Positions 24,329-54,547 are shown, counted from the first letter of the stretch. The stretch: 64,000 nt of DNA from Thermoleophilia bacterium (GCA_028285405.1 JANQPH010000044.1:62001-126000); one strand, 5' to 3'. Notes: a model not told the origin generated them from the letters alone. Made by a program: numbers and translations.

Positions 24329-26259
<1,931 letters not shown>

Positions 26260-32864: not shown

Positions 32865-33268
32865 CCGAGGAGCAGGAAGAGCGGTTGCCGGCCATTCAGG
32901 CCGCTGACGAGTTCCTTCCCCCGGTGGCAGAGGGGGATGGCGATGGACTCGCGGGCAAGGCGGATCGCGCCCGCCGTCGTGTGACCGGGCCGTTCCAGCG
33001 GCCGCAGCACGCAATCGACCGAGTGCTGCTGTCGGCGATCGAGGAGACCAGCAGGGACGCACGGGGGCGGGTTCGCGCGCTGGACGACCGGATGCTCGAG
33101 ATCGAGGCACGGATGGGCTGGGTCGAGCTCGAGGTCGCCCGGCTCGCCGCGGCGATGGAGGATCGCGAGCGGCGGCTCACGGATCGGATGGCGGCACTCG
33201 AGGCGTCGCTTGCGCTGATCGCGGCGCGCCTCGATGGGCGCGCCGACTCGTCCGAAGGCGAGCGCTGA
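32861..33268 (+). CDS. Small coiled-coil protein of the glycan operon
   Basis: A 135-residue hydrophilic protein. The first 35 residues are acidic. From about 60 on it is a continuous amphipathic helix (ARGRVRALDDRMLEIEARMGWVELEVARLAAAMEDRE and onward) predicted to form a coiled coil. The TTG at 32861 overlaps the previous TGA (TTGA), which makes coupling likely and defines the start. It has no membrane segment or enzyme motif. Candidates are an adaptor that holds glycosyltransferases together or a chain-length helper; neither is proven. Confidence 0.6.
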   Translation: MTEEQEERLPAIQAADEFLPPVAEGDGDGLAGKADRARRRVTGPFQRPQHAIDRVLLSAIEETSRDARGRVRALDDRMLEIEARMGWVELEVARLAAAMEDRERRLTDRMAALEASLALIAARLDGRADSSEGER

Positions 33269-33273
33269 TCGAG

Positions 33274-34239
33274 ATGGCGCCCTCGGGCGACCACGCCGTC
33301 CCAGGTTCGCTGCTCGTGGTGGGCGGGGTGGCGAAGGACGGGCGCCCTGGCGGACTCGCCCTCGTCGAGGACGGTTCGGCCGAGGTGATCGACGCGCTCG
33401 ATGTGGCGTCGATCTCGGTCGAGGATGGCCGACTCGAGCGAACCCTGGCCGATGGCGAGCGACGGGCGATCTACGACGAGCGCGGACTCTTGGCGATCGT
33501 CCCCGCGAGCGGCGGCACAGGCGTGGTGGCGACCGAGGCGCCGAACGGCTCGCTTGCGGGCGGCCATGGGACGTCGGGGGTGCACCTCGAGAATCCGGAC
33601 GGCGCGCTTCCCTACGTCGTGATCCCTTCACATGTGGGAGACGGCGAGCGGGTCGAGCTTCCGTTCGGGCGCGCGACCGGCGTGGCAGCCGTCGATCAGC
33701 GCCTTGCCGAGGGAATCCGGGTCGGCGGTCGGGTCAACCCGACCCGTTCGGCCGAGCTGCGTCAGGAGCGAGCGTTTCGAGCCGCGGGCGTGAGCGCCAC
33801 GTCGATGTGGGCGGCCGGCGCGCCGCTGACGATCCCCGATTGCCATGTCGAGATCGAGGTCGAGAACCCGCCCGAGATGGCTCCCGGCGCTCGTCTTCAG
33901 ATCCCGTACCGGCTGACGAACCTCGGTGCGGCCATACTCGCCACCACTGGACAGTGTCCGATCTACATCTCGGCTCGCTGGCACGATCCCGCGACCGGGA
34001 CCGAGGCGTCGGACGTCGTGCACTTTCGGGGTCCGCTCGAGCAACCGGTGCACCCGGGCGTCACGCATCACGGGACGATGACCATCGGCGCGCCGTCGGT
34101 TGGCGGCACCTACCACGTGCAGTTCACGCTGCTGCAGGAGAACGTGCGCTGGTTCTCGGACGCGGACGATCGCAGCGCCGCATGGGTCGTGATCGAGGTC
34201 GGCGATGGCAACTCGGCGGCCGTGGCGGCGTCGGCATGA
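33274..34239 (+). CDS. Protein with propeller-like and Wzt-C/Ig-like halves
   Basis: A 321-residue protein of unknown function. The N-terminal 110 residues (SLLVVGGVAKDGRPGGLALV, then EVIDALDVASISVEDG) match in pattern the C-terminal module of the next gene (QVLVVAGADPDFVHGGGVAV, then EVVDRVSTVGLEWTADG). The C-terminal 130 residues are a beta-sandwich type. PYRLTNLGAAILATTG, ISARWHDPATG, and GTYHVQFTLLQENVRWFSD resemble the carbohydrate-binding Ig-like modules found in O-antigen loci. I infer a glycan-binding accessory to the ABC exporter. ATG at 33274; its stop overlaps the wzt start. Confidence 0.55.
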   Translation: MAPSGDHAVPGSLLVVGGVAKDGRPGGLALVEDGSAEVIDALDVASISVEDGRLERTLADGERRAIYDERGLLAIVPASGGTGVVATEAPNGSLAGGHGTSGVHLENPDGALPYVVIPSHVGDGERVELPFGRATGVAAVDQRLAEGIRVGGRVNPTRSAELRQERAFRAAGVSATSMWAAGAPLTIPDCHVEIEVENPPEMAPGARLQIPYRLTNLGAAILATTGQCPIYISARWHDPATGTEASDVVHFRGPLEQPVHPGVTHHGTMTIGAPSVGGTYHVQFTLLQENVRWFSDADDRSAAWVVIEVGDGNSAAVAASA

Positions 34240-36482
34240 GTGGAGGCGCTCCGAGCGGAGCCCCGGTGATCCCCGGCCAGATCCGCGTTCGCGGGGTGTC
34301 GCGCCACTTCAAGGTGCTGCACGACAAGTCGCTCACCCTCAAGGAGACCGTGCTTCGCCGCCGGCGCGTGGTCGCGACCGAGTTCCAGGCGCTTCGTGGC
34401 GTCGACCTCGACGTGGCGCCCGGGGAAGCCGTCGGAATCGTCGGTCGCAACGGATCGGGAAAGAGCACCCTGCTCAAGATCCTGGCCGGGATCCTGTCTC
34501 CGCATGACGGCACGGTGGAGCTCGGCGGCACGGTGACCTCGATGCTCGAGCTCGGCTCGGGGTTCCACCCCGACTTCACGGGCCGCGAGAACGTGCTGAT
34601 GAACGGCGCGATCCACGGGTTGACCGAGGAGGAGATCGAGTCCCGCCTCGACGAGATCGTCGAGTTCTCGGAGCTCGCGGAGTTCATCGACAACCCGGTC
34701 CGCACGTACTCGAGCGGGATGCAGATGCGCCTGGGCTATGCGGTCGCCGCGCATCTGCGCCCGGACGTCCTCCTCCTCGACGAGGTCCTCTCGGTCGGAG
34801 ACGAGGCGTTCCAGCGCAAGTGCATCGCCCACATCTTCGACTACCGGCGCCACGGCGGAACGCTCGTCTTCGTGTCGCACGACCCCGGCCAGGTCGAGCG
34901 CGTGTGCAACCGCGCGGTGCTGATGCACCAGGGGGAGATCGTCGACGAGGGACCACCGGGCGAGGTGCTCGCCGACTACCGCAGGCTCCTGGTCTCGACG
35001 GGTGCTGGAGCATCGAGCGGGGACGTCCACGAGCACGGGGACGACACCCTCCCGGAGCCCGAGTCGGTCCACGAGCCCGACCTGGTGCTGTCCGGCTACC
35101 GCCTGCTGGGTCCCGGTGGCGTGACCGACCGGGTCATGTCCGACGACCCGATCGCGGTCGAGATCGATCTGGTCGCCGAGGGTGGGCTCGGCAGCGTGCA
35201 GGTCACGGCGGACGTCGTGAGCGACGAGGGCCCGATCTTGAGCGAGAGCACTTCCCAGTTCCCCGTCGATGACGGGGAGGTGACGACGCTGCGGCTCGAT
35301 CTTCCGGACCTCGGGCTGAACACCGGGGGCTTCAGCGTGAGCTTCAGCCTCACCAAGGGCGATGGCACCCCGCTCGAGCACCGCGAGCAGGTCCTTCCCT
35401 TCGACGTCTTCCCGCGCGAGTCGGGTCGCTCGCTGCTCGCCACCACGGGCACGTGGAGCGCCACCAGCGCTCCCGGCGCTCCGGCGTCGGTCGAACCTGC
35501 CGCGACGCCGACCGGACCGCGACGCGCGCTCGGCGACGGCTTTCGGGTACGTGGCCGAGAGGGGCAGGTGCTCGTGGTGGCCGGAGCCGATCCGGACTTC
35601 GTGCACGGCGGTGGAGTCGCGGTCTACGACGGCCGGCGTCTCGAGGTCGTCGACCGCGTCTCGACGGTCGGGCTCGAGTGGACCGCGGATGGGGCGCTCG
35701 CGCGGCTGCTGCTGCCGGGGCCACCGAGCTCGGGAGCGCTCGAGCTCCTGAAGATCACCCCCCGCGGGCTCGACGAGTACCGGCGACTCGAGGGAATCGG
35801 CGAGATCACGGGCTCGGCCACCAGCGACGGTCGCCTGGTCGTGAGCGCCTCCGGCTGCGCGTTCTGGATCGCTCCCGACGGCGCGGTCGTGCGGCAGGAG
35901 CCGGGCGGCCTGCTCGCCGACGACGCCGTCGTCCGCGTGGTCGGGCAGGGGCCGACCGGCCCCCTTGCGGTCGTCACCTCGCAGGAGTCGACGTGGCTCG
36001 CGGATCTCTCGAGCGGCCGCAGGATCGGACCGGCCGACGAGCGAGCGACGGCTGTCGTGGCGAGCGACTCGGCCTCGATCCTGGCCCAGCCGTCGGTCGA
36101 TCTGCTGGTCGTTCACTCGAGCGACTCCGAACCACGGCGCGAGATCGCATGCCCGTTCCCGGGGTCGCTCGTGTCCGCCGGCGATCTCGTCGCGGTCGGT
36201 CAGGACCCCGTCGATCCCGCCACGAGCGTCGCGGCGAGCCTGATGCTGCTCGATCCCGAGGTGCTGCAACCGGTGGCGAGCGTGCAGCTGCCGTTCGCGC
36301 GGGTGTCCGCGATGGCGTTCGTGCCGAAGGACGTCGTCTCGGGGCTTCGGGCGGCCGCCCTCGACCTGCACGGGATCTTCTCGGCGGGAGCGGACCGTCA
36401 CGACGGCTGGATCGAGCCCGGGATCGGGCACCCCGGTGAGTCCGGCGAGGCTGCTCGTCAGCACCCGGTCCAGTCGCGGTGA
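34236..36482 (+). CDS. wzt: Wzt-type polysaccharide ABC exporter ATPase with extra C-terminal module
   Basis: A 748-residue protein. Residues 1-250 are the ATPase of Wzm/Wzt exporters: Walker A GRNGSGKST at 70-78, the Wzt-typical TSMLELGSGFHPDFTGREN, signature YSSGMQMRL at 158, Walker B LLLDE near 180, and SHDPGQVERVC. Residues about 285-400 match a Wzt C-terminal beta-sandwich that recognises the capped glycan end. Wzt proteins normally end there (about 400-450 residues). Here about 320 further residues follow, with repeated short beta-strand motifs suggesting a beta-propeller (DUF4915/TIGR03032-like is a guess). Its first 50 residues resemble the N-terminus of the preceding gene's product. 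ATG in ATGA overlap. The partner permease is encoded at 53696 on the other strand. Confidence 0.88.
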   Translation: MSGGAPSGAPVIPGQIRVRGVSRHFKVLHDKSLTLKETVLRRRRVVATEFQALRGVDLDVAPGEAVGIVGRNGSGKSTLLKILAGILSPHDGTVELGGTVTSMLELGSGFHPDFTGRENVLMNGAIHGLTEEEIESRLDEIVEFSELAEFIDNPVRTYSSGMQMRLGYAVAAHLRPDVLLLDEVLSVGDEAFQRKCIAHIFDYRRHGGTLVFVSHDPGQVERVCNRAVLMHQGEIVDEGPPGEVLADYRRLLVSTGAGASSGDVHEHGDDTLPEPESVHEPDLVLSGYRLLGPGGVTDRVMSDDPIAVEIDLVAEGGLGSVQVTADVVSDEGPILSESTSQFPVDDGEVTTLRLDLPDLGLNTGGFSVSFSLTKGDGTPLEHREQVLPFDVFPRESGRSLLATTGTWSATSAPGAPASVEPAATPTGPRRALGDGFRVRGREGQVLVVAGADPDFVHGGGVAVYDGRRLEVVDRVSTVGLEWTADGALARLLLPGPPSSGALELLKITPRGLDEYRRLEGIGEITGSATSDGRLVVSASGCAFWIAPDGAVVRQEPGGLLADDAVVRVVGQGPTGPLAVVTSQESTWLADLSSGRRIGPADERATAVVASDSASILAQPSVDLLVVHSSDSEPRREIACPFPGSLVSAGDLVAVGQDPVDPATSVAASLMLLDPEVLQPVASVQLPFARVSAMAFVPKDVVSGLRAAALDLHGIFSAGADRHDGWIEPGIGHPGESGEAARQHPVQSR

Positions 36483-38597: not shown

Positions 38598-39506
38598 TCA
38601 GCGTCGGCGCGCCTTCGCGGCCAGCGCGCGAATTGGCGCGGTCACGCGCCACGAGAGCGACCGCGTCAGCTGGTCGACCGTGCTCGCGAGCTGGTGGTTT
38701 CGCGCCTGGGTCGCGGCGATCTCCTGCTCGAGCTCTCGGTAGCGAGCCGAGCCGCGTGCCTCTGCCGCGTAGCTCTCCCGCCCGGGTCGGGGCGCGACCG
38801 GCCACTCGTGGTAGGCGCTGTCGTGGTTGTCCAGCGCGAGCTCGTTCACCCCGACGTCCGGGTGCCTCGCGAGCACCAGCGGGAGGCTCAGTTGGTCCCG
38901 CCTGCTGTACCGAAGCACGTGGTTCCACCAATCCGACATCGCGGCGCCCACCGCGGCATCGCCGTGCCGGCGAATCAGCAGACCGCCCCAGTACGGACGC
39001 TCCTCGATGAGCTCGGGCGCCAGCCGCTCGACAACGTGCACGAGCTCGTCCACGCGGTCCGGGTCCTCGAAGCCGAGTCGGACGATGGCGTCGGCCTCCT
39101 GCCGGAGCGAGGTGTGGAAGGAGTGGCGAGCGAGCGCCAGACCGGCCTCGGGATCGGCGAGGCCGGCGTTGAGCAGCCCGTCCGGCGGCCCTTTCAGCCG
39201 AACGCTGTTGTCGATGTAGACCGACGCATCGGTCTCGGCCAGGTACTGCTCGGGGAAGAGCTTCGGATGTCTGCTCGCGCGTGCCGGGTCGAGGGGGAGC
39301 ACCGGCTCGACCACACGGATGGCCCAGGTCTCGCTGGACAGCTCGGGGTCGTCCGTGACGCAGACGAACGGAAGCGTCGAGGCTGACGCGGCCGGCTGCT
39401 CGACCAGCTCCTCGTAGCCACCGAAGAGGCAGGTGTAGACGCAGGCTCTCTCGATGTCGATCGCCCCCCACGGGTTCGCTGGGCGCGCCTCATCCGGACC
39501 GTTCAC
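38598..39506 (-). CDS. DUF616/TOD1-MUCI70-like glycosyltransferase
   Basis: A 302-residue GT-A-like protein. ACVYTCLFGGYEELVEQP at the N-terminus, FVCVTDDPE, RHPKLFPEQYL, and SVYIDNSVRLKG fit the DUF616 family of glycosyltransferase-like proteins. LARHSFHTSLRQEADAIVRLG is another family block. The C-terminal 60 residues form a coiled coil and end with LTRSLSWRVTAPIRALAAK, a tail seen on many actinobacterial glycan-locus transferases. The GTG at 39506 is chosen: a -10 box (TACTCT) ends 15 nt upstream, and the longer frame would run into the divergent asparagine-synthase gene. Confidence 0.75.
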   Translation of the reverse strand: MNGPDEARPANPWGAIDIERACVYTCLFGGYEELVEQPAASASTLPFVCVTDDPELSSETWAIRVVEPVLPLDPARASRHPKLFPEQYLAETDASVYIDNSVRLKGPPDGLLNAGLADPEAGLALARHSFHTSLRQEADAIVRLGFEDPDRVDELVHVVERLAPELIEERPYWGGLLIRRHGDAAVGAAMSDWWNHVLRYSRRDQLSLPLVLARHPDVGVNELALDNHDSAYHEWPVAPRPGRESYAAEARGSARYRELEQEIAATQARNHQLASTVDQLTRSLSWRVTAPIRALAAKARRR

Positions 39507-39521
39507 CCCGGAGAAAGTGGC

Positions 39522-39531
39522 AGAGTACCTC
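39522..39531. promoter_or_regulatory. Overlapping divergent -10 boxes
   Basis: AGAGTACCTC holds TACTCT on the minus strand (39527-39522) and TACCTC on the plus strand (39526-39531), sharing the central TA. Each points to a start codon within about 20 nt (GTG at 39506 and GTG at 39535). Same design as the otsB/tauE intergenic site. Confidence 0.35.
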
Positions 39532-39534
39532 CCC

Positions 39535-42500
39535 GTGTGCGGGATCGCTGGCATCTACTCGGGTGGTCCGGCCACCGGCGGCGGGGAGCCCGAGCGCCAT
39601 CTGGTCCGGAGGATGACCGACGTCCTCGCCCATCGTGGTCCGGACGCGCAGGGCCACTGGCAGGACGAGCGGGGGCGGTGCACGCTGGGTCACCGCCGGC
39701 TCAGCATCATCGACGTCTCGACAGCGGGTGCGCAGCCGATGAGCGCACCCTCCTCACCGTGGGTGCTCACCTACAACGGGGAGGTCTACAACTACCTGGC
39801 GCTGCGGGCGGAGCTCGAGTCGGAGGGCGTGGTCTTCACCGGCCACTCCGATACCGAGGTGCTCCTCTGGGCGATCACGCGGTGGGGCCCGGACTGCATC
39901 GAGCGCCTCGACGGCATGTTCGCGCTCGCCGCATTCAACACGGCGACCGGCGAGCTCCTTCTCGCGCGCGACCCCTTCGGCGAGAAGCCGCTCTACTACT
40001 GCGATGCGGGCACCGAAGGCGTCGCGTTCGCGAGTGAGCTGAACGCGCTCGCCCTGCTCCCGTGGTTCTCGCGGTCCGTCTCGCGCGAGCGGATGGCAGA
40101 GCTCCTGATGTTCCAGTACATCGGTGCCCCCCGCGCGATCTTCGACGACGCGAAGAAGCTCCCGCCGGGGCACGTCGCACGGTTCGTGCCCGGGCGCGCT
40201 CCTGAGATTCGGCGGTACTTCGGGTTCACCCCCCACGAGCCGGACGACTCCGACGAGACGCTGTGGGGGGCCGCCGATCGTCTCGAGGAGCTGCTGAGCG
40301 AGAGCCTTGAGCGTCGGCTCATGTCCGACGTCCCGCTGGGCGCCCTGCTCTCCGGTGGGGTCGACTCAGCCGTGGCGTGTGCGCTGGTGCGCCGCCGCCT
40401 GGGTGTCCCGCTGAAGACCTTCTCGCTGGGTTTCGAGGGAGCCCCCGAGTCAGAGACGGACGTTGCGCGCGCGTTCGCCGAGGCGATCGGCAGCGACCAC
40501 CACGAGCTGACCGTGGACGCCGACGCGGTCGACTTCCTGCGTTTCGTCGGAGAGCACCTGGACGAGCCCAACGGCGACGTCTCGTGCTTTCCCACGTATC
40601 TGCTCGCGAAGCTGGTTCGCGAGCACGTGACCGTCGCCATCTCGGGTGATGGCGGCGACGAGATGTTCGGAGGGTACGGGCGCTACTTCGCGACCCTCGA
40701 CGAGACGGCCGCCCGGCCGCTCGCGCCGCTCGGCGGCAACTACTACTCGGACCAGGTCCTGGTCGCGACGGAGCTCGAGGTCCGGGCCTTGCTGGGAGAG
40801 GTGCCCGAGGGGCTGCGGCGGCACCTCGCGCAGCTTCGTGCCGAGGTCGAGCAGCAGCGCTCGGAGCCGCTTGCGGCCATGCGTCGGACCGACGCGGCCA
40901 ACTACATGCCCGGGGCGGTGCTGGCGAAGGTCGATCGCATGAGCATGCAGCACTCGCTCGAGGTGCGAACTCCGTACCTCAACCCCGACGTCGCCGAGTT
41001 CGCCGCCGCCCTCCCCGAGCGCCTGCTCGTCCGCGGCGGGCACGGGAAGCTCGTGCTCCGTGAGGTGGCGTACCGCCATCTCCCCCGGGATCTGATCGAT
41101 CTGCCGAAGAAGGGGTTCGGCCTGCCATCCGAGGCGTGGGCGACGGGACCGCTCTCGGAGCTGGCGCGCGAGATGCTCTCGGGCTCTGAGAGCCGTCTGC
41201 GGCGGGTCTTCGGTCCCGAGCGCACGGACAACTTCCTCCATCGCCCGTTCCGGCTCGGGCCGATCTGGGGTCTGCTCGCGCTGGAGTCGTGGGCGCGGGC
41301 TCACGATCCGGACCTCGAGGAGGTTGGCTCCGCCGCCGCGCCCGGTCGTCGGCTGGAGCCCCGTCGGCCGTCCGCCAGGCGGCGGGTCGCGAAGTGGCTC
41401 ACCGACGAGACGCTCCTCCTGGTTGACGAGGACTTCACCGACAAGACCGCGTTCGAGGAGATCGACGGGCAGACGCGGATCGGGAGCGCGGTGACTCAGC
41501 GAACGGTCGACGTGCTGCGAGCGCTCAGGCCGCTGATCGGCGCCGAGGCTCCCCGGGAGGCGGCGGGCTGGATCGAGCTGCCGGCGACCGAGTTGCCGAA
41601 GGACGCGTTTGCCGCCGTGGGGCTGGACGTCGCCGGCGCTCGCGTGGTCTGGCTGCGCTCGGATGCGCTCGTCGAGCACGGACGGCCGCGTGGCTCGGTG
41701 CGAGCGGGCGGCGGCGGCCTCTCGGTCTCGCTGGGCCTTCAGACCTGGCAGGCGGGGTCGACCGGTCTGCGCAGCGAGGCCATCCGGCTGACCGGCTCGG
41801 ATGCGCTTCTCGTCGCCAACCCGCTCGACGACTCGACGAGCCTTCCGATCGTCGCCCACCATCGTCGGGCGTCGCCTCGGCGACTTCGGCGCGCCGCCCT
41901 GCGCCGGCCGGACACGCTCGGTCCCCCGCGCGAGCCTGCTCCCCACGAGGCCGATCGGCTGGTCTACGACATCGAGTCGGCGCCGGGGCCACGTCCGGCT
42001 CGCGAGGGCCAGCCGCGGGTCACGCTGACCACGCACGCGCTGCCGCCGGGGGGTGCGGAGCGCCAGTGGTGCTATCTGGCGATGGGGCTCGCCGAGGCGG
42101 GAGTCGAGACGCAGTTCGTCGCCACCGACACGCTGCGCGGGCGCGAGGCGCACTATGCGCCGATGCTGAAGCGTGCGGGGATCCCGGTGATCGAGCTGCC
42201 GCACGTTGACGCCGGGACGCTGCTGGAGGGAGTCACCGGCGGCGACCTGGTGAGCGACGTCCAGGTCCAGCCGACGGGCGTGTCCGACGCGGCGCTGCGG
42301 CTCGCGGCCGTGTTCAGGGTCCAGGAGCCGGACGCGGTCCTGGGCCAGCTCGATCAGACCAACGTGTTGACCGGACTGGCCGGGGTGCGGGCCGGGGTGC
42401 CGACGGTGCTCTTGTCGTTTCGCAACTACAACCCCGACAACTTCTCGTACCTGCGAACGGACTGGTACCGGCCGTCGTATCGGGCGCTCGCCGAGCGGCC

Positions 42501-43230
42501 CGAGGTCGTGCTCAGCGGGAACTCGCGCGCCGGAAACGACGACTACGCGGGCTGGATCGGTGTGGACACGAGCACCGTTCACACCATCCCGAACGCGATC
42601 TCCCTCGAGACGATCAGCCTGCGTTCTCCGGCGAACGGCCTCGACGACCTTCGGCGCGAGCTCGGGATCAGGTCGTCCGACAAGCTCGCCCTGGGGGTCT
42701 TCCGCCTCTCCGAGGAGAAGCGCCCGGACCTCTTCGTCGAGGCCTGCGCTCGGGCTGCCCACCGCATTCCGGAGCTGAGGGTGCTGATCGCAGGGGTCGG
42801 TGGACTCGAGGAGCGAGTTCGTCAGCTCGGGTCGCTCTACGGCTTGGCCGACCGGCTGACCGTGCTCGGAGCTCGCCAGGACGTCGCCGATCTGCTCCGG
42901 CTGAGCGACGTGCTCCTGGTGACGAGCCGGTTCGAGGGGATGCCGAACGTCGTGCTCGAGTCGCTGGTGCTGGGCGTGCCGGTCGTCGCCGCGGACGTCG
43001 GGGCCGTCGCCGAGCTCGTCGAGGACCGCCGGACGGGAATCGTCGTCTCCTCGGACGCCGCCGAGGACTTCGCGGACGGCCTCGTCGAGGTCCTCTCCGA
43101 CTCCGAGAGCTGGAAGGCTCGTTGTCGGGCCGCCTCCGAGACGCTGGCGGAGCGATTCTCGATCGAGCGGATGGTCGCGGACTATCTCGCGATCTCGACG
43201 AACGGCCGGCCGAGCGCGTCAGACCCCTAG
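39535..43230 (+). CDS. Asparagine-synthase-like amidotransferase fused to GT4 glycosyltransferase
   Basis: A 1,232-residue fusion. Residues 1-600 are a complete glutamine-hydrolysing AsnB. Cys2 follows the GTG start (CGIAGIYSGG), and RRLSIIDVSTAGAQPM, YNGEVYNY and HSDTEVLLWAI form the glutaminase site. The ATP-binding PP-loop LSGGVDSA begins at 273, and SGDGGDEMFGGYGRYF and the KKGFGLP region follow. Residues 600-825 are an unrecognised linker. From 829 there is a full GT-B glycosyltransferase: HALPPGGAERQWCYLA, GVFRLSEEKRPDLFVEA, and FEGMPNVVLESLVLGVPVVAADVG near 1133 with the E-x7-E motif. No stop or frameshift was seen. AsnB homologues in O-antigen loci amidate uronic acids. The fusion suggests amidation coupled to transfer of the same sugar, an inference. 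The stop overlaps the convergent gene in CTAG. Confidence 0.88.
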   Translation: MCGIAGIYSGGPATGGGEPERHLVRRMTDVLAHRGPDAQGHWQDERGRCTLGHRRLSIIDVSTAGAQPMSAPSSPWVLTYNGEVYNYLALRAELESEGVVFTGHSDTEVLLWAITRWGPDCIERLDGMFALAAFNTATGELLLARDPFGEKPLYYCDAGTEGVAFASELNALALLPWFSRSVSRERMAELLMFQYIGAPRAIFDDAKKLPPGHVARFVPGRAPEIRRYFGFTPHEPDDSDETLWGAADRLEELLSESLERRLMSDVPLGALLSGGVDSAVACALVRRRLGVPLKTFSLGFEGAPESETDVARAFAEAIGSDHHELTVDADAVDFLRFVGEHLDEPNGDVSCFPTYLLAKLVREHVTVAISGDGGDEMFGGYGRYFATLDETAARPLAPLGGNYYSDQVLVATELEVRALLGEVPEGLRRHLAQLRAEVEQQRSEPLAAMRRTDAANYMPGAVLAKVDRMSMQHSLEVRTPYLNPDVAEFAAALPERLLVRGGHGKLVLREVAYRHLPRDLIDLPKKGFGLPSEAWATGPLSELAREMLSGSESRLRRVFGPERTDNFLHRPFRLGPIWGLLALESWARAHDPDLEEVGSAAAPGRRLEPRRPSARRRVAKWLTDETLLLVDEDFTDKTAFEEIDGQTRIGSAVTQRTVDVLRALRPLIGAEAPREAAGWIELPATELPKDAFAAVGLDVAGARVVWLRSDALVEHGRPRGSVRAGGGGLSVSLGLQTWQAGSTGLRSEAIRLTGSDALLVANPLDDSTSLPIVAHHRRASPRRLRRAALRRPDTLGPPREPAPHEADRLVYDIESAPGPRPAREGQPRVTLTTHALPPGGAERQWCYLAMGLAEAGVETQFVATDTLRGREAHYAPMLKRAGIPVIELPHVDAGTLLEGVTGGDLVSDVQVQPTGVSDAALRLAAVFRVQEPDAVLGQLDQTNVLTGLAGVRAGVPTVLLSFRNYNPDNFSYLRTDWYRPSYRALAERPEVVLSGNSRAGNDDYAGWIGVDTSTVHTIPNAISLETISLRSPANGLDDLRRELGIRSSDKLALGVFRLSEEKRPDLFVEACARAAHRIPELRVLIAGVGGLEERVRQLGSLYGLADRLTVLGARQDVADLLRLSDVLLVTSRFEGMPNVVLESLVLGVPVVAADVGAVAELVEDRRTGIVVSSDAAEDFADGLVEVLSDSESWKARCRAASETLAERFSIERMVADYLAISTNGRPSASDP

Positions 43231-44438
43231 TTGGGATCCTCCTCCCGCACCGCGAGGTACTGCAGGCAGATCACCGACAGGTCCCTCGGATCCCGGTGTC
43301 TGAACATCGGGTCGAAGCGCTCGACGACCTCGGGCGCGAGCGCGGGCACGACCTCCTCGTAGGAGTGGTACCAGCCCGCCTCGTTCGGGTCGTCGTCGGG
43401 CAGCAGCGCCTGGATGATCACCCGCTCGACGCGCAGACCGTGCCGTGCCGCCAGCTCCAGGTGGTCGTTGCAGCGGAGGCGATTCTCGGTCGCGTGTGCC
43501 GCGTACTCCTCCTCGGAGAGCTCGAGGAAGGCGAGCGGCTTCGAGAAGTCCCGGTGGTCGCGCAGGTCGACCGAGTGGAAGGTGGCCGCGCCGGGCTTGA
43601 GTGCTCGCGCCATGGCCGCGTAGACCGCGTTCGGCTGGTCGACGTGCTCGAGCACGGACGTGGAGAAGATGAAGTCGAGGCTCGCCGGCTCGATCGGCAG
43701 CTCCTCGAAGCGCTGCCCGCCGACCGTCTCGAGCCCTCTGAACGTCGCCGTTCCGTCGCCGAGGTCGTCGAGCCGGGCCTCGAGCGCCGGCGACAGCCGC
43801 GGCGAGATCCGCTGGACCGCCTGCACCATCTCCGCAAGGGCCTCGGCGTCCCACTCCCGGCTCACCGGGAGCAGATCGTTTGCGATCACCTGCTCGGCGC
43901 CTTCGGCCAGCAGTCGGGCCGGGGCCCACGGCGTCTCGCCGCAGCCGATGATCGCCATGCGCCGACCGATCGACAGATCGTGGTCTCGGAGCAGATCGAG
44001 CACCGGGTCGAGCTGGGTGAAGAAGTTCCCGAGCAGGTTGTTGTTGATTGCGGTGCTCTCGATGATCAGCGCTGCCATCTCGCGGTCGTCGGCCGCGATC
44101 CGTCGGGAGATCGAGTGGGACACGGCGTCGGCGTACTTGGTGTCCGGCAGGAACAGCGAATACGTGCGTCCGTTCGTATTCGGGTCGCTGCCGTCCGTCG
44201 TCGAGAACGCGACCCGGTCTCCGCGCAGCTCGAACACCCCCCGCCCCGTGCGCCGGTAGCCCTGGTTGGTGTCGTTGGGGAACAGGAGTCGGTCGTCCTC
44301 GAGCACCGAGACGAGCGCGGCGACGGCGGGCGCCGCGAGGAGACGGGCGACCTCCGACCCGACGTACGACGAGAACATGCCCCGGTCCTCGGCGTCGAAC
44401 GGTGGCTCGAGAGCATGGGTCCGGCCCGGTGACGGCAA
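43227..44438 (-). CDS. SAM methyltransferase with N-terminal beta module (paralogue 1)
   Basis: About 403 residues from the TTG at 44438. The N-terminal 100 residues contain the module GVFELRGDRVAFSTTDGSDPNTNGRTYSLFLP. The rest is a class I methyltransferase: MAIIGCGETPWAPARLLAEG is motif I, VIANDLLPV motif II, and LDFIFSTSVLEHV and MARALKPGAATFHSVDLRDH the later motifs. It is clearly paralogous to the gene just upstream (shared LAEGA, VIANDL, TSVLEHV, VYAAMA, ENRLR). Start uncertain: a longer frame reaches a TTG at 44573, but residues there are low-complexity and overlap the upstream gene. It may methylate a glycan sugar. Confidence 0.75.
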   Translation of the reverse strand: MPSPGRTHALEPPFDAEDRGMFSSYVGSEVARLLAAPAVAALVSVLEDDRLLFPNDTNQGYRRTGRGVFELRGDRVAFSTTDGSDPNTNGRTYSLFLPDTKYADAVSHSISRRIAADDREMAALIIESTAINNNLLGNFFTQLDPVLDLLRDHDLSIGRRMAIIGCGETPWAPARLLAEGAEQVIANDLLPVSREWDAEALAEMVQAVQRISPRLSPALEARLDDLGDGTATFRGLETVGGQRFEELPIEPASLDFIFSTSVLEHVDQPNAVYAAMARALKPGAATFHSVDLRDHRDFSKPLAFLELSEEEYAAHATENRLRCNDHLELAARHGLRVERVIIQALLPDDDPNEAGWYHSYEEVVPALAPEVVERFDPMFRHRDPRDLSVICLQYLAVREEDPN

Positions 44439-44541
44439 CGGCGCTGGTGCTGCCGCGTGAGCTCGCGATGTCGGCGGCGATCGGCGGGGAAGGTGGCGAG
44501 CCCCGGATCGCAGCGCGCTCGAGACGCGCGTCTGCAGGCGT

Positions 44542-46083
44542 CTAGCGCCGGACGGCAATGAACCGCATTCCAACGATGGACAGGTCGGTGAGCTCGTGGT
44601 GCTGGAAGGCCGGATCGAAGCCCACCCGATCCGCCTCGGTCACGGTTGGCTCGATCTCGGCCCAGGGGAGCCACGGCGCCCGCAAGACCGGATCACCCGG
44701 CGTGCGCCAGTACGCCGCATCCACGACCTCGAAGCCGTTGTCCTCGAGCAGGCGGAGATGATCGCTCGCTCGGAGCCGGTTCTCGGTGTTGATCGCCGCG
44801 TACTCGTCGTGCGAGAGGTGCAGGAACCGGAGGGGATCGTGGAAGGCCAGGTGGTCGCGCAGATCGATCCAGTGTGCCATGAGCCCCCCTGGGCGAAGGG
44901 TGTTGGCCATTGCGGCGTACACGGCCTGCGCATCCATGACGTGCTCGAGAACGGATGTGGACGTCACCAGGTCCGTGGACTCCCGAGCGAGCTCGAGGTG
45001 CTCGAACGCCATGCCCCCGGCGTGCACTAAGCCCTCGAACGTCGTCTGCTGGGGTCCGGCGGGGCGCTTGCGCGCGTCCAGCGCGGCGCGCAGCTGCGGG
45101 AGCACGCTCTCCAGCACGTCGAGGAACGGCTCGACGACCGGGTCCGGAAACGCTTGGAGCACCGGCTGCAGATCGTTTGCGATCACCGTCCGGGCGCCTT
45201 CGGCCAGCGCTCGGAGCGGGACCCAGGGGACGTTGCCGCAGCCGAGGACCACGACGTCTCCGTGGAGCGTCAGCCCATGGTCACGGAGGTAGGTGACGAG
45301 GTTCGTCCCCTGGTCGAAGAAGTTGCTGAGACAGGTGTTGTTCTCGGCGACGTTGCGCGTGATGAGCTCGAGGAGCTGCTGGTCGGACTCGATGATCTCG
45401 AGGGTCCGGGCCTGCCCGATCGCCTGGACGAGCGCCGGGTCGGGGACCTCGATCTCGTACCGGCGCTCACCGGCCCCGGCGTCGCCGGCGGCTGACGAGA
45501 AGTCGACACCGTCCACGGTCACCCGGTACCGGCCGGCACCGAAGTCGGCGATCCGCTGGTGGTGGCGCTCGGGCTGCGGGAGCGGAACTCCGTCCTCGAG
45601 CACCAGCGCGTAGTCGAGCAGGTCGGGTCGTCGCGTCAGGAGCTCACGGCTGGGCGCTGGCAGCGACGCGTGCAAGAGGTGTGCCCCGAACTCGGAGAAC
45701 GGCCGGCGGAGGGGGAACCGGCGCGCGCGAGCGGCGGTCTGTCGGAGCGGAAGCCACAGCTCGTATCGGCGTCCGTTGCTGGTCGGGTCCGACCCGTCGC
45801 TCGAGGAGAGGTAGACCTGGTCTTCCCAGACGGAGAAGCTCCCGTGGCCCGACTGGCGGATGTAGTCGTGGATGTCCGTCGGCGAGCTCAGCGGGGTGTC
45901 TTCCTCGCAGACCCGCGCGAGCTCCCGCACCGCGGGGTCCTCGAGCAGTGGGAGCGCGTTCGCCGGGATGTCCGTGAGAAACGCCAGCCCGCCGTCGTGG
46001 TGAAAGGGCCGGTCGAGCGCGAATCGCGTGTGCTCGCCAAGGGGCGCGCGCTCGAGCGAGCCGCTCGCCCGGGAACCAGTCAT
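44542..46083 (-). CDS. SAM methyltransferase with duplicated N-terminal beta module (paralogue 2)
   Basis: A 513-residue protein. The N-terminal half holds two copies of the module found once in the next gene: SFSVWEDQVYLSSSDGSDP, then NGRRYELWLP, and RYRVTVDGVDFSSAAGD, then ERRYEIEVP. The methyltransferase domain has VVVLGCGNVPWVPLRALAEG, VIANDLQPV, TDLVTSTSVLEHV and HWIDLRDHLAFHDPL. The ATG is directly preceded by a -10 box (TACCAT, 46096-46091), which puts the start of transcription at or next to the ATG. With paralogue 1 it forms a two-gene unit. The module may bind the glycan substrate. Confidence 0.77.
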   Translation of the reverse strand: MTGSRASGSLERAPLGEHTRFALDRPFHHDGGLAFLTDIPANALPLLEDPAVRELARVCEEDTPLSSPTDIHDYIRQSGHGSFSVWEDQVYLSSSDGSDPTSNGRRYELWLPLRQTAARARRFPLRRPFSEFGAHLLHASLPAPSRELLTRRPDLLDYALVLEDGVPLPQPERHHQRIADFGAGRYRVTVDGVDFSSAAGDAGAGERRYEIEVPDPALVQAIGQARTLEIIESDQQLLELITRNVAENNTCLSNFFDQGTNLVTYLRDHGLTLHGDVVVLGCGNVPWVPLRALAEGARTVIANDLQPVLQAFPDPVVEPFLDVLESVLPQLRAALDARKRPAGPQQTTFEGLVHAGGMAFEHLELARESTDLVTSTSVLEHVMDAQAVYAAMANTLRPGGLMAHWIDLRDHLAFHDPLRFLHLSHDEYAAINTENRLRASDHLRLLEDNGFEVVDAAYWRTPGDPVLRAPWLPWAEIEPTVTEADRVGFDPAFQHHELTDLSIVGMRFIAVRR

Positions 46084-46096: not shown

Positions 46097-46196
46097 TCGG
46101 CCCTCCCGCCCCGATTGCTCCCGGTGGACGATGGTGTCCTCTACCCTCCGACCGTCCGAGCCCGCTCCATGCCGTGCGGTCTCGCCTGCCGAACTC

Positions 46197-47678
46197 ATGA
46201 CTGCGCCCAACGCACAGCGGTTGCTCTCGCGCGCCCGCCTGTACATCCCCGAGTCGCTTTTTGTCGCGGCGTTCGCGATCTCATACGCGTTGTCCGAGAT
46301 CCCGTTGGTCACGCCGGACTCGGGTGGATACATCCGTCGCGGCGAGGCGATCTTCGTGGCGGACCAGCCCGAGCAGGCCGAGACCTGGGGCTCGATCAGC
46401 CTCCTGGGCGACAGCTTTCGGGCGTGGCCGACCACCCTCTTCTACTCGATCGTTCCCGCGGGGGACGCGCCCTTCGGCAACACCGGCCGGATCTTCATCC
46501 AAAGCGTGCTGGTCATCGTCGTCACGATCTGGCTGGCCCATCGTCTGTCCGACTTCGTTCCGCGCAGTCGGCGCTGGATCGTGCGCGTGGCGGTGTACCT
46601 GCTGATGCTGACGCCGACCGCACTGACGTACTCGTTCATGGTCGGTGCAGAAGGCCCCACGACCATCCTCGTGTTCGCGACAGCGGCCGCGACGCTCGAG
46701 CTTCCGCGACGCATCACCGCTGACGCCCCGTGGCCGGTCGTCGCCGCCTGGGCGGGAGGCGGGTGGCTCCTCGGCTTGCTCGGCGTCTTGGCCCGTCCGT
46801 CGGCGCTCCCGATCCTCCTCGTCGTGCTCGGCGTCGGCGGCTATCTCCTCGTGACCCGACGGGTCTCACCTGGCTGGAAACCGCAGCTGGCGGCGACGGG
46901 GGCCGTCGTGCTCCTCGCGCTCGCATCGGTGAGCTACGCGAGCGTGAACCAAGACAACCAGAGCCAGGCCTGGGGCGATGTGACCGAGCGCACCTACCGG
47001 ATCTTCTTCGCGCTCGATGTCCAGTCGAACGAACGGTTCATGGGCGAGTTCCGCGAGAGCATCCCGGCGGACGCCCCCGATTGCCTCGAGCGCTATCCGG
47101 GCGATAGAGCCCTGGGCTGGACTGAAATGGGGGAGTTCGCGCTGAACGAGTGCGGCCCCGACGGCGTGTCCTGGATCCAGGACAACTACTTCCAGACGAT
47201 GGTCGGCTACTACGCCGGCGACCCCCGGAACACCGTTGCGTACTTCACCCGCACCGCCGCGGGAGCCGCGGGCCCATCGGCCGCCCCCCAGGTCACGAGC
47301 GTCAGCGTCCCCGTTGTCGACTCGCTCGTCTTCACGAGCGGGGGATTCAACCTTCCCGTGCTCTACATGATCGCCACGTTGGTCGGGATCGGGTTGCTGG
47401 TTCTCCGCCTACCGGGCGAGCGGCAGGGGCGGAGCCTGCTCCGTCCCAGGGTCTTCTACGTGGCGCTGATCTTGCTGGCCGTCGCTGCGTGGGGCGCGTT
47501 CTTCCTGTCGTACTTCGACAGCCCGGTGTCGATCAACAGGAAGACCTGGCCCTTCTACTTCTTCGGCCTCATGGTCGGAGTGATGACGTTGATCGCCGCG
47601 CTGCCCGGACTCAACAGGTCGGTGTCGTCCGATTCCGGATCGGAGCAGGGGGCGGGCGAAGGGGCGCCTGGCAACTGA
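46197..47678 (+). CDS. Polytopic membrane protein, glycosyltransferase-like (GT39/PMT type)
   Basis: A 493-residue integral membrane protein with about ten helices. The first loop, PLVTPDSGGYIRRGEAIF, contains an aspartate after the first helix as in C-type GT39/PMT-like transferases (D-x-x-x-Y). A large extracytoplasmic loop lies near residues 265-375 (NQDNQSQAWGDVTERTYRIFF, and further). The last 25 residues are hydrophilic. It probably transfers a lipid-linked sugar outside the membrane or modifies the glycan. ATG at 46197 is preferred to an upstream GTG at 46131 because a -10-like TACCCT (46142-46147) lies between them. Specific function unknown. Confidence 0.68.
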   Translation: MTAPNAQRLLSRARLYIPESLFVAAFAISYALSEIPLVTPDSGGYIRRGEAIFVADQPEQAETWGSISLLGDSFRAWPTTLFYSIVPAGDAPFGNTGRIFIQSVLVIVVTIWLAHRLSDFVPRSRRWIVRVAVYLLMLTPTALTYSFMVGAEGPTTILVFATAAATLELPRRITADAPWPVVAAWAGGGWLLGLLGVLARPSALPILLVVLGVGGYLLVTRRVSPGWKPQLAATGAVVLLALASVSYASVNQDNQSQAWGDVTERTYRIFFALDVQSNERFMGEFRESIPADAPDCLERYPGDRALGWTEMGEFALNECGPDGVSWIQDNYFQTMVGYYAGDPRNTVAYFTRTAAGAAGPSAAPQVTSVSVPVVDSLVFTSGGFNLPVLYMIATLVGIGLLVLRLPGERQGRSLLRPRVFYVALILLAVAAWGAFFLSYFDSPVSINRKTWPFYFFGLMVGVMTLIAALPGLNRSVSSDSGSEQGAGEGAPGN

Positions 47679-47735
47679 CGGTGAGGCGCGGCCACGATCC
47701 GATGGGGCGTCAGGCGCTCGTCGCGGATGCTGCGC

Positions 47736-49313
47736 TTAGGGTGCGCACGCCGCCGAGACGATCCGGGCTGCGTTCGCCATCACGGTGAGGGTGATGGTCG
47801 TCGCGGCGACTGTTGGCAGCACGGTGGCGTCGACGACGTGGACGCGGCTCATGCCCGCGGGGCGCCCGAGCAGGTCGGTCTCGGTCTCGCCCGGCGTCCT
47901 CGACATCGGGAAGCTCCCCCCCACGTGAAAACTGCGCCCGACCGCGGCGATGTCGACGAGCGGCTCGAGGGGGATCGCGCCGACGCGCCAGAGGCCCTTG
48001 CGCAGCACGCGCAGCACTCGGCGGACCTCGCGGTCGACCGCGGTATCGTCGCGGTGCGCGCGGGCGCTGATCGAGTCGTCGTCGTTGCGGGTCCAGCGGA
48101 TCCGACCCGACAGGTCGGAGTGGAGGAACCCCTGCATTCCGAGCACGCATCGACCGGCGAGGGCGAGTGCGCCCGGAAGGCGCCGGCCGGGACCGAGCCT
48201 CGCCTCGAGCCCACCCCTCACGACCTCGTTTGGACCGTAGATCTGCATGTGGGCGAGACGTCCGGGCAGGCGGGAGTCGTCGAGCTCGACGAACGCCTGG
48301 CTGAGGGCGAAGATCTCGTCGGACCCGCGGCCGGTGGTCGGGTTGGCGACGACGATCGGCGCAATGAAGTACTGGCTGTCGAGGAGGTCCACCGGCTCCG
48401 AGACGCCCAACGTCCTGATGAGCAACGGGGTGCTCGACATCGCGCCCGTCGCGAGGAAGACGGTGCGTGCGACGTGCCGCTCGGAGCGCCCGCCCGCCAG
48501 CGGTCGAGACTCGAGCGCCACCCCGCCCCCCGTCTCCTCGAGCGAGTGGACGACCCGACCCGAGAGGTACGTGATCCTGCCGTCCCGGTGCGCCTGCTCG
48601 ATTCGGTCGCCGGCATCGAAGATCGACCGGTACGGACACCCGCGGGCACAGAACCCGCACTGACGGCATCCGGTGGGACCTTCGGTCTCGACCGCCACCT
48701 GGGCCGCTCCGACCGAGACCCCCACGCGTCGCAGATGCCCTCGGCGGTTGCTCGCGCGTCGAAGCAGGCGCGCGACGCTCGAGGAGATCGGCAGTCTGCC
48801 GAGCCGTCGCGGCCGGGGCGAGAAGAGCTCGTGCAGCACGTCCGACCGTCCCGCGATGGGCATGAGCGACAGCGCGGCCTCGTAGTGCGGACGAAGCTCG
48901 TCGAACGAGACGGGCCACCGCTCGAACTCGCGACGGTCGTACGGCAGCGCCGCCGCTCCCCAGACCGTGCTCAGGCCGCCGAGCGCGAAGGACGCGCGTG
49001 CGCCGACATCGTCGTACGTGACCGGATCGGCCGCGGGTGGGAGCGCATAGGGAACATCCGAGCCGAGCAGCAGCTTGTCCGGCGGCGCGTCGTCTCGTGC
49101 GACCGGGACCGGCGCGAGGTGCTCGAACATCGCTTGCGGCGTCAGATCCGAGGATCGGCGAACGAGCGACGCAGCGGCGGCTCGGGTGCTGTCGACCCGC
49201 TGGCCCGCATCGATGACGGTCACCCGCCGTCCGCGGACCAGCGCGGCCTCGACACTTGCGAGGGCGCTCGGTCCCGAGCCGACGACGACGACGTCGTGGC
49301 GTGGTCCGGTCAC
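47736..49313 (-). CDS. GMC-type FAD oxidoreductase with ferredoxin-like cysteine motif
   Basis: A 525-residue flavoprotein. VVVVGSGPSALASVEAAL at 8-25 is the FAD dinucleotide loop. FALGGLSTVWGAA is the second FAD motif of the glucose-methanol-choline family, and FLATGAMSSTPLLIRTLG is the signature. FHVGGSFPM and DATVLPTVAATTITLTVMANA form the C-terminal active site. Residues 216-226 read CRQCGFCARGC (CX2CX2CX3C followed by P), able to hold a [4Fe-4S] cluster. It probably oxidises a sugar hydroxyl during glycan synthesis; the electron acceptor could be a ferredoxin or quinone rather than oxygen. Convergent with the membrane protein gene to its left. Confidence 0.8.
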   Translation of the reverse strand: MTGPRHDVVVVGSGPSALASVEAALVRGRRVTVIDAGQRVDSTRAAAASLVRRSSDLTPQAMFEHLAPVPVARDDAPPDKLLLGSDVPYALPPAADPVTYDDVGARASFALGGLSTVWGAAALPYDRREFERWPVSFDELRPHYEAALSLMPIAGRSDVLHELFSPRPRRLGRLPISSSVARLLRRASNRRGHLRRVGVSVGAAQVAVETEGPTGCRQCGFCARGCPYRSIFDAGDRIEQAHRDGRITYLSGRVVHSLEETGGGVALESRPLAGGRSERHVARTVFLATGAMSSTPLLIRTLGVSEPVDLLDSQYFIAPIVVANPTTGRGSDEIFALSQAFVELDDSRLPGRLAHMQIYGPNEVVRGGLEARLGPGRRLPGALALAGRCVLGMQGFLHSDLSGRIRWTRNDDDSISARAHRDDTAVDREVRRVLRVLRKGLWRVGAIPLEPLVDIAAVGRSFHVGGSFPMSRTPGETETDLLGRPAGMSRVHVVDATVLPTVAATTITLTVMANAARIVSAACAP

Positions 49314-49519
49314 CGGGACTCGGCGCGCGCCGGGGTTCGGGCTGCGCTGTCCGAGCAGGTGTTCCGCGCGGGTCGGTCCGGGACCGATTCGGCTACGTTG
49401 TCGGCTCGGACCACCCGCCCAGCCTAGCGGCGGTGCTCACCCCTCCCCGTTCGTAGGAGGCGACGGTCAGGCTTCCGCTTGCACGGCATGACGAGCTCGA
49501 CGGAGTCGACCTCGCCAGC

Positions 49520-50239
49520 GTGGACGCGGGTCGGCTGCAGGTCGATCTCATCCGGCGCAGCCCCGCGTTGCTCGAGATGTACCGTGGGTTCTATCGGCTG
49601 ATGCTCGACGCCGAGGCCGCGAACCTGACCGGCGCCGGGGCGCGGGTCGAGCTGGGATCGGGTGGCGGCTTCTTCTCGGAGCTCGATCCTGAGATCGTCA
49701 CCTCGGACATTCGGCCGATTCCGGGTGTCGATCGCGTCGTCGATGCGCAGGAGCTTCCGTTTCCGGGCGGGTCGCTCCGCACGCTGTTCGGCATGCACGT
49801 GCTCCACCACCTCCCGGACGTCGGCCGGTTCCTCGGTGAGGCGACGCGCTGCCTCGCTCCCGGTGGCGGGGTCGTCGCGATCGAGCCCTATTGGAGCCCA
49901 CTCGCACGGGTGGCGTACACGCACGCACACCCCGAGCCGTTCGATCAGGAACGCGGCTCGTGGGAGTTCGAGTCACGGGACGCGATGGACTCGAACCAGG
50001 CCCTTCCCTACATCATGCTCGTGCGCGATCGCGATCGATTTGATCGAGAGTGGCCGGAGCTCGAGGTCGTTCCGGGGCCGGTGTTCAGCGGCCTGAGCTA
50101 CCTCCTGACCGGTGGCATCTGGAGACGGTCGGGGTTGCCCGAGTCCGTCTTGCTGGGGATGCTCCGCTACGAACGGCGAACGATGTGGTGGAAGCGGTGG
50201 TTCGGACTGCACTTTCTCTTCACGCTGAGGCGTAGATGA
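49520..50239 (+). CDS. Class I SAM-dependent methyltransferase
   Basis: A 239-residue methyltransferase: RVELGSGGGFFSEL (motif I), IVTSDIRPIPGVDRVVDAQELPF (motif II), FGMHVLHHLPDVGRFLGEATRCLAPGGGVVAIEPYW (motifs IV-VI). A hydrophobic C-terminal part (LFTLRRR end) may touch the membrane. GTG at 49520 is the first possible start. A coding-like stretch of about 20 codons precedes it in frame, running back to an in-frame TAG, so an alternative non-canonical start cannot be excluded. Its stop overlaps the ATG of the GT2 gene (ATGA). Confidence 0.8.
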   Translation: MDAGRLQVDLIRRSPALLEMYRGFYRLMLDAEAANLTGAGARVELGSGGGFFSELDPEIVTSDIRPIPGVDRVVDAQELPFPGGSLRTLFGMHVLHHLPDVGRFLGEATRCLAPGGGVVAIEPYWSPLARVAYTHAHPEPFDQERGSWEFESRDAMDSNQALPYIMLVRDRDRFDREWPELEVVPGPVFSGLSYLLTGGIWRRSGLPESVLLGMLRYERRTMWWKRWFGLHFLFTLRRR

Positions 50240-53695: not shown

Positions 53696-54547
53696 TCAGA
53701 GCTCGACCGCCATCTCGCGTTGCAGGCGCTTGAAGACCCAGATTCCGGCGGCGAGCGCGACGGTCGCCGCGACGACGGAGTAGATCACGTCGGTCGCCGA
53801 GGGCCACACCCCGAAGAAGACCGACTTGTGGATCGCGATGATGAACGGCGCCGGCGGGTTCAGGTAGTAGAAGAGATTGGCCACCAGCTCGTTGTTCGCG
53901 AGACCGGGAGCGATGCGCTCGAAGTTCGCCGGTGACCAGAAGATCGGGCTGATGAAGATCCACGGAAGGCCGATCGCGACCAGGATGTGCTCGACGTCCC
54001 GAAAGTAGACGTTCACCGCCGCGAGCAGCAGCCCAAGGCCCACGGTGAACATGCCGAGCAGGATCAGCATGGGCGGAAGCGCGAGCACCGTCTCGCGCTC
54101 GCCGCCGGTGACGACCAGTGAGATCGGCACCGCCACGGCGAACATCGCGAGCGCGGTGAACGAGTTTCCGGCCATGGCCGAGAGCGGGATGATCTGGCGC
54201 GGGAAGCTGACCTTCGTCACCAGGCTGGCGTTCTGCACCAGGCTGGCGGCGGCCACGGCGATCCCGCCGAAGAAGAGCGTCCAGGTCGCGAGGTTCAGGA
54301 ACAGGAAGACCGCATACCACGGGATCGTGATCTTCCAGATGACCGTGAACACCGCGTAGTAGGCGGCGACCATGATGACCGGGGTGATGAGCGTCCACCC
54401 CAGGCCCAGCACCGAGCCCTTGTATCGCTGACGGATCTCCCGCCGCGTCAGGTTGACGAAGAGCGGCCAGTACCGAATCCAGGATGCCGGGATCAGGCGC
54501 GAGCCGACGCGCTGGGACCGCTCTGCATCCTCGTAGCGAACCGCCAT
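53696..54547 (-). CDS. wzm: Wzm-type polysaccharide ABC exporter permease
   Basis: A 283-residue ABC-2 permease with six helices. LTRREIRQRYKGSVLGLGWTLITPVIM is the hallmark N-terminal amphipathic motif of Wzm/TagG exporters, followed by FGGIAVAAASLVQNASLVTKVSFPRQIIPLSA, YFRDVEHIL, and NPPAPFIIAIHKSVF. It should form the channel with the Wzt ATPase at 34236. They are 17 kb apart on opposite strands, whereas in most loci they are adjacent. ATG start with GGGG upstream and a -10 box (TACGGT, 54595-54590) giving a 36 nt leader. Confidence 0.93.
   Translation of the reverse strand: MAVRYEDAERSQRVGSRLIPASWIRYWPLFVNLTRREIRQRYKGSVLGLGWTLITPVIMVAAYYAVFTVIWKITIPWYAVFLFLNLATWTLFFGGIAVAAASLVQNASLVTKVSFPRQIIPLSAMAGNSFTALAMFAVAVPISLVVTGGERETVLALPPMLILLGMFTVGLGLLLAAVNVYFRDVEHILVAIGLPWIFISPIFWSPANFERIAPGLANNELVANLFYYLNPPAPFIIAIHKSVFFGVWPSATDVIYSVVAATVALAAGIWVFKRLQREMAVEL

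Follow-up and report, generated by a model that had tools for sequence, protein, structure and literature searches.

Can a single protein both amidate a carboxylate of a surface glycan and add a sugar to that glycan? The question is raised by a gene in a 64,000-nucleotide stretch of DNA from a Thermoleophilia bacterium (GCA_028285405.1 JANQPH010000044.1:62001-126000), the whole of which we call the window, where a glutamine amidotransferase of the AsnB type and a glycosyltransferase (GT) of family GT4 share one frame. A preliminary description, made by a model from the sequence alone, had proposed that this protein amidates a sugar and transfers it, with channelling between the two sites. Our data indicate that the fusion is genuine and recurs across phyla, and we give a probability of roughly one half to the reading that it is a bifunctional surface-polysaccharide enzyme whose AsnB half makes a carboxamide, likeliest on a uronic acid, and whose GT4 half attaches a sugar to the same glycan.

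A single frame with two conserved active sites

The open frame at 39454-43230 on the plus strand contains no internal stop, and a GTG start at 39535 gives a protein of 1,231 residues opening with (M)CGIAG. This start, also that of the preliminary description, is correct since the 15 homologous fusions share a Cys at aligned position 2. The protein consists of an AsnB-type half (residues 1-590), a linker (591-828) and a GT4 half (829-1231), and the Pfam matches of both halves exceed the curated cut-offs; those of the GT4 half are Glyco_transf_4 at 838-1025 and Glycos_transf_1 at 1038-1192 (E 9e-30). The uninterrupted frame claimed earlier is borne out, and so are its landmarks, namely Cys2, SGGVDS at 273, SGDGGDE at 370, GGAER at 839 and E-x7-E at 1134-1142 (EGMPNVVLE). 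The sizes needed small corrections, from 1,232 to 1,231 residues for the protein and from 225 to about 238 for the linker. Among PDB structures, the AsnB half matches the hydroxyamidotransferase 7ylz, its closest solved relative, and E. coli AsnB (1ct9), and the GT4 half matches GT4 structures including 2jjm and 5d00.

We assessed conservation over 16 fused proteins, i.e. that of the window and 15 others. Cys2, Asn81, Gly82, Glu83 and Asp106 of the glutaminase site are invariant in all 16, and Arg54 is kept in 14, with Lys and Gln in the other two. The synthetase site is kept throughout (SGGVDS at 273-278, D375, E376 and K505; 16/16), as are E1134 and E1142 of the GT4 half in all 16, and GGxER is found in 15 of the 16. 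The AsnB half hence has the features of a class-II amidotransferase of the AsnB type, i.e. a Cys glutaminase with Arg, Asn-Gly-Glu and Asp, and a PP-loop with Lys and acidic residues; the GT4 half has those of a GT-B enzyme, i.e. Glycos_transf_1, E-x7-E and an N-terminal glycine-rich loop. One might suppose that one half is catalytically idle and serves the other as scaffold or regulator, e.g. a GT regulated by the glutamine level, as fusion alone is no proof of turnover by both halves and the second half of the linker looks flexible. We consider this unlikely, because both halves retain their active-site residues in proteins from several phyla, which is rare in idle domains.

The NCBIfam model TIGR01536 (asparagine synthase) scores 443 bits, above its cut-off of 267, and this score and the kept catalytic residues would fit a genuine asparagine synthetase with an incidental GT partner. 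However, TIGR01536 is a broad model, the fusion gene lies within a polysaccharide locus, and the linkage with the GT4 subfamily described below is confined to this AsnB clade. The same genome has a separate stand-alone AsnB-type gene on contig C1, so the AsnB of the fusion need not be the housekeeping enzyme. In addition, the position equivalent to Glu348 of E. coli AsnB (E. coli numbering, mapped via the 1ct9 alignment) is Asp in 16/16 fusions. A genuine asparagine synthetase is in our view quite improbable.

Recurrence of the fusion and its history

We scanned one genome per species for 84,980 species, and the frequency of the fusion outside the window's phylum rests on this single scan. The same fusion of AsnB, linker and GT4 is present as a single open reading frame (ORF) in 15 other genomes, with the ORFs checked, from Nitrospirota, Pseudomonadota, Myxococcota or deltaproteobacteria, Planctomycetota and one relative of the window's family (Table 1, where loci bear our own L numbers). 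L042, L046 and L050 may be further fusions, but their contigs stop at the GT part or short of it. The fusion was found in 2 of the 37 sampled genomes of the window's family and 2 of the 399 of its class. The two genes are adjacent in relatives and may overlap, by a few bases of their frames in L045 and L049, which could suggest that an assembly or frameshift artefact has joined them. The same open fusion in independent genomes of several phyla rules out such an assembly, frameshift or sequencing artefact, to which we give practically no weight.

L035 comes from another genus of the window's family, and its fusion is 57% identical to that of the window over residues 1-1222. In the AsnB tree, a quick tree with several open forks, most fusions cluster, and those of the window and L035 lie amid fusions of other phyla (Shimodaira-Hasegawa-like approximate likelihood ratio test, SH-aLRT, 89-94). 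The fused state requires 6 changes on this tree versus 14.9 with shuffled labels. The simplest reading of these sequences would be horizontal transfer, followed by a few fusions or splits. A plasmid search gave 515 matching records, none covering 80% of the fusion, and a search of viral contigs with P0001 gave no relative. As a separate observation, the title of the L035 record (CAMAVU010000001.1), Bifidobacterium breve, looks wrong; the genome of ~1.6 Mb is assigned to the family of the window, and the G+C of the locus is 66.7%.

The two enzymes in unfused relatives

In close unfused relatives, AsnB and GT4 are separate genes, usually no more than 5 kb apart and sometimes overlapping. The same GT4 subfamily is found within the retrieved locus in 23 of the 35 unfused AsnB relatives with identity of at least about 42-48%, and in 12 of these 23 the GT4 lies on the same strand within ~800 bp of AsnB; several of the 12 relatives without GT4 at the locus sit at contig ends. 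Below ~41% identity, none of the 30 AsnB relatives has this GT4 subfamily nearby. Therefore this GT4 subfamily accompanies this AsnB clade, fused or not. The functional linkage of the two halves is well supported, and amidation and sugar transfer are very probably steps of a single pathway. We consider the recurrent fusion across phyla strong evidence that both activities act on the same molecule. Two AsnB relatives, L048 (7983-10665) and L111 (7962-10237), have a frame broken inside the AsnB domain, through frameshift or decay.

The linker

The linker had been described as of no known type. It matches nothing in Pfam or NCBIfam at E<=10. It is not peculiar to the window protein; in unfused loci its counterpart is the stretch by which the GT gene is extended at the N-terminus. 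Structure prediction had been suggested in the preliminary description. In the AlphaFold2 (AF2) model the best blocks lie within ~615-707 with a predicted local distance difference test (pLDDT) score of about 76-80, giving a moderately confident alpha/beta piece, and the second part is mostly below 35; the model is too poor for a fold search, and no fold is claimed. Judging from this model, the N-terminal ~90 residues look ordered and the linker outside ~615-707 is probably flexible.

The window linker aligns collinearly but weakly with the sister linkers, most of which consist of an alpha/beta-like stretch and then a ~90-residue module (FSSSDNSDPN). With a profile of this module we found clear copies within the fusion ORFs of L047, L056 and L061 and degenerate ones in those of L036, L037, L038, L040 and L086 (E 6e-10 to 2e-5). 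The linkers of the window and L035 lack the module; the profile detects no copy in the window linker, and the hypothesis that one is present there was abandoned.

Proposed function of the fused enzyme

The window at ~24-64 kb encodes a guanosine diphosphate (GDP)-mannose dehydratase, epimerases, several GTs, methyltransferases, a polysaccharide-export ATPase of the adenosine triphosphate (ATP)-binding cassette (ABC) type and an ABC-2 permease, and by this predicted gene content the locus is an ABC-exported surface-polysaccharide cluster. We propose that glutamine would be hydrolysed at Cys2 of the N-terminal half, that the ammonia would be passed within the AsnB domain, and that ATP would be used to adenylate a carboxylate, which becomes a carboxamide. 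The likeliest carboxylate would be that of a uronic acid in the glycan on which the GT4 half works, in line with WbpS and WbqG. The C-terminal GT4 half would move a sugar from a nucleotide donor to the growing glycan, i.e. to the amidated residue or a neighbour. We infer the order of the two steps, and also a benefit of the fusion, which would keep amidation and transfer on a single polypeptide; in relatives, separate genes next to each other probably perform these tasks. The channelling between the AsnB and GT4 sites proposed earlier has no support either way; the second half of the linker is modelled at very low confidence, and the ammonia tunnel of the AsnB family lies within the AsnB half.

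Uronic-acid amidation is most likely by what we consider a sound analogy with WbpS and WbqG. The earlier statement that stand-alone AsnB homologues in O-antigen loci amidate uronic acids agrees with the literature, where the linking sugar of P. gingivalis needs WbpS (PGN_1234) for its uronamide and the N-acetylgalactosaminuronic acid (GalNAcA) amide in E. coli O121 needs WbqG, the pathway position of WbpS being stated as unknown (PMC7468200). WbpS (P. aeruginosa, P. gingivalis) and WbqG (E. coli O121) have AsnB-type glutaminase and synthetase domains in surface-glycan loci, like the window protein, but they are stand-alone, whereas the window protein has a GT4 half and is not a member of their NCBIfam model. 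The fusion links one particular GT4 subfamily with a WbpS-like amidotransferase, and having one protein makes the timing of uronamide formation (on the nucleotide sugar, the lipid-linked glycan or the polymer) directly testable.

We also compared other known systems. TviE, the GT4 of Vi-type polysaccharide, works on a GalNAcA polymer, which favours the uronic-acid reading, and has the GT-B GT4 catalytic domain in common with the window protein at a distant resemblance, but it lacks an amidotransferase half, and no tviB-type nucleoside diphosphate (NDP)-sugar dehydrogenase gene was seen in the window locus. A further model, PRK15490, gives 93 bits against a cut-off of 813. E. coli AsnB (1CT9) and 7YLZ have the two-domain architecture and catalytic residues of the window AsnB half, but no GT is fused to them, their known substrates are aspartate or another small acid, and the Glu348 position differs. 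The parts of the fusion are known and their combination appears undescribed, as we found no AsnB-GT fusion in the literature searched. The earlier remark that no protein with this domain order had been described holds for that literature, but the architecture recurs in public genomes.

Several observations weigh against the proposed function. TIGR03108, the model of the WbpS/WbqG group, is second best among the NCBIfam models, a rank that favours the analogy, but it scores 436.4 bits, far below its cut-off of 816.9, and the TviE-type model PRK15179 scores 169.7 bits over residues 829-1220, far below a cut-off of 733. We found no NDP-sugar dehydrogenase in the window locus, nor within ~8 kb on either side of the other fusions, and the two such genes of the genome are on other contigs; among all fetched loci only L107 and L114 have one, neither being a fusion. 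The closest solved relative, 7ylz, is a hydroxyamidotransferase, which acts on a non-sugar acid, so the carboxylate could be something else. The idea of a protein that both amidates and transfers is favoured by the two intact halves, the polysaccharide locus and the recurrent fusion or neighbour linkage, but its uronic-acid part rests on analogy.

The protein might instead be bifunctional with an AsnB half that amidates or activates a non-uronic carboxylate, e.g. in an acyl or amino-acid group borne by an amino sugar, or in a sugar acid that an oxidoreductase of the locus makes. The lack of a local NDP-sugar dehydrogenase and the nature of 7ylz would fit this, as would the flavin adenine dinucleotide (FAD)/GMC-type oxidoreductase common to the window and L035. 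Genes for a DegT aminotransferase and a WbqC-family protein likewise lie near the fusion in L035, L036, L038 and L039, together with a GT-like gene of unassigned family ('GNTNN' N-terminus, no or weak Pfam match), and L036, L038 and L039 also have a radical S-adenosylmethionine (SAM)/SPASM gene there. But DegT has no blast match in the window and WbqC is absent from the window genome, so they are not obligatory partners, and WbqC in that role was rejected. Moreover, the characterised polysaccharide members WbpS and WbqG make uronamides. We regard a non-uronic carboxylate as possible but less likely, and we prefer amidation of a uronic acid.

An unclassified module

The ~90-residue module of the sister linkers may be a more novel find than the fusion. 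Its signature is LxEDGxxLGxxHxxHxDIRxxGGGRYSHWxxxLxFSSSDNSDPNTNGRxY (short form GRYSHW...FSSSDNSDPNTNGR), and its stand-alone or tandem copies are not recognised by Pfam and NCBIfam. It occurs in short ORFs, tandem arrays, methyltransferases, radical-SAM/SPASM proteins, GT4s and AsnB-GT fusion linkers, and it marks a set of polysaccharide loci with members that go unrecognised by the curated family libraries. The window genome has four copies on one contig, three of them on two methyltransferase genes beside the fusion. We found the module in 2 of the 296 sampled genomes of the phylum, both fusion carriers, and in 11 of the 12 fusion genomes searched directly, the L035 genome being counted in both sets. 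The two phylum genomes represent one event, not two, because they have a syntenic locus in common. The AF2 model of the module has a pLDDT of 90, and its fold has no PDB match at E<=0.001.

In BFVD the module matches five giant-virus proteins with E 1e-7 to 2e-9 and ~30% identity, i.e. a galacturonosyltransferase-like protein, a type-2 glutamine amidotransferase, a radical SAM protein, a methyltransferase and one unnamed protein. From their sequences they seem to be the same kit of activities, which suggests an exchange of a glycan-synthesis kit. The Hyperionvirus type-2 glutamine amidotransferase A0A3G5AEI9 (846 residues) carries the module of the sister-fusion linkers, unlike the window linker, but by our own estimate its length seems insufficient for a complete GT4 half. 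We speculate, at rather low confidence, that a rare cassette, spread by horizontal transfer and with AsnB-GT4 as its core, makes a hitherto unrecognised amidated glycan. The shared module would tag the amidotransferase, GT4, methyltransferases and radical-SAM proteins and would recognise or dock on a common intermediate, and giant viruses would have acquired the kit.

Other features of the locus

The synteny of the window with L035 spans at least 8 genes, and the genes at 46131-51246 have 33-58% identity to those of L035 by blastp. The TOD1/MUCI70-type gene is fused in L035 to the module and a methyltransferase part.

Table 1. Features of the window, with related loci and proteins (positions are those of the window unless a locus or contig is named)
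Feature	Position	Strand	Basis and remarks
NDP-sugar epimerase/dehydratase and GDP-mannose 4,6-dehydratase genes	24329..26259	+	Pfam Epimerase, GDP_Man_Dehyd; start of polysaccharide locus
Wzt-like polysaccharide ABC ATPase ORF	33234..36482	+	Pfam ABC_tran, NCBIfam teichoic/galactan exporter ATPases; ATPase domain about residues 350-590
TOD1/MUCI70-type glycosyltransferase-like gene	38598..39554	-	Pfam PF04765; divergent from fusion
Fusion: class-II glutamine amidotransferase domain, residues 1-172	39535..40050	+	Pfam GATase_6/GATase_7 at 36-172; Cys2 nucleophile, Arg54, Asn81-Gly82-Glu83, Asp106
Fusion: asparagine-synthase (ATP pyrophosphatase) domain, residues 250-588	40282..41298	+	Pfam Asn_synthase E 4.6e-82; SGGVDS PP-loop, SGDGGDE, Lys505 (E. 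coli AsnB Lys449)
Fusion: linker, residues 591-828	41305..42018	+	Pfam/NCBIfam scan, AF2 model, sister-linker comparison
Fusion: GT4-type GT-B glycosyltransferase, residues 829-1231	42019..43227	+	Pfam Glycos_transf_1/Glyco_transf_4; GGAER loop at 839, E1134-x7-E1142
Module copy	44127-44423	-	Profile A1 E 1.1e-21 and alignment; N-terminal side of methyltransferase gene 43227-44573, convergent with fusion
Module copies (two)	45487-45726, 45733-46023	-	Profile A1 E 8.9e-10, 1.8e-24; N-terminal side of methyltransferase gene 44542-46083 (Pfam)
Protein without Pfam match, common to L035	46131-47678	+	blastp
FAD/GMC oxidoreductase, common to L035	47736-49313	-	blastp, Pfam
Methyltransferase, common to L035	49520-50239	+	blastp, Pfam
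GT2, common to L035	50236-51246	+	blastp, Pfam
ABC-2 type membrane protein, Wzm-like exporter subunit	53696..54547	-	Pfam ABC2_membrane
Fourth module copy	G000 contig C37 128988-129284		Just beyond the window
Further module sites	L055:4953-7166, L036:11970-12467, L065, L069, L071, L077
Fusion loci			L035 (= L006), L036 Nitrospira, L037, L038 Methylomonas, L039 Roseibium, L040 Sphingomonas, L041 Rhizobium
Fusion loci			L047 and L054 (deltaproteobacterium/Myxococcota); L056, L058, L059, L061 (Planctomycetota); L068 Thalassotalea; L086 Bradyrhizobium
Giant-virus module proteins (Hyperionvirus, Harvfovirus)			A0A3G5ADE5, A0A3G5AEI9, A0A3G5A2W3, A0A3G5A4X5, A0A3G5AAL9

The Wzt-like ORF has an unusually long C-terminus, with about 490 residues past the ATPase domain and no Pfam match in them, and its true start is probably near 34270.

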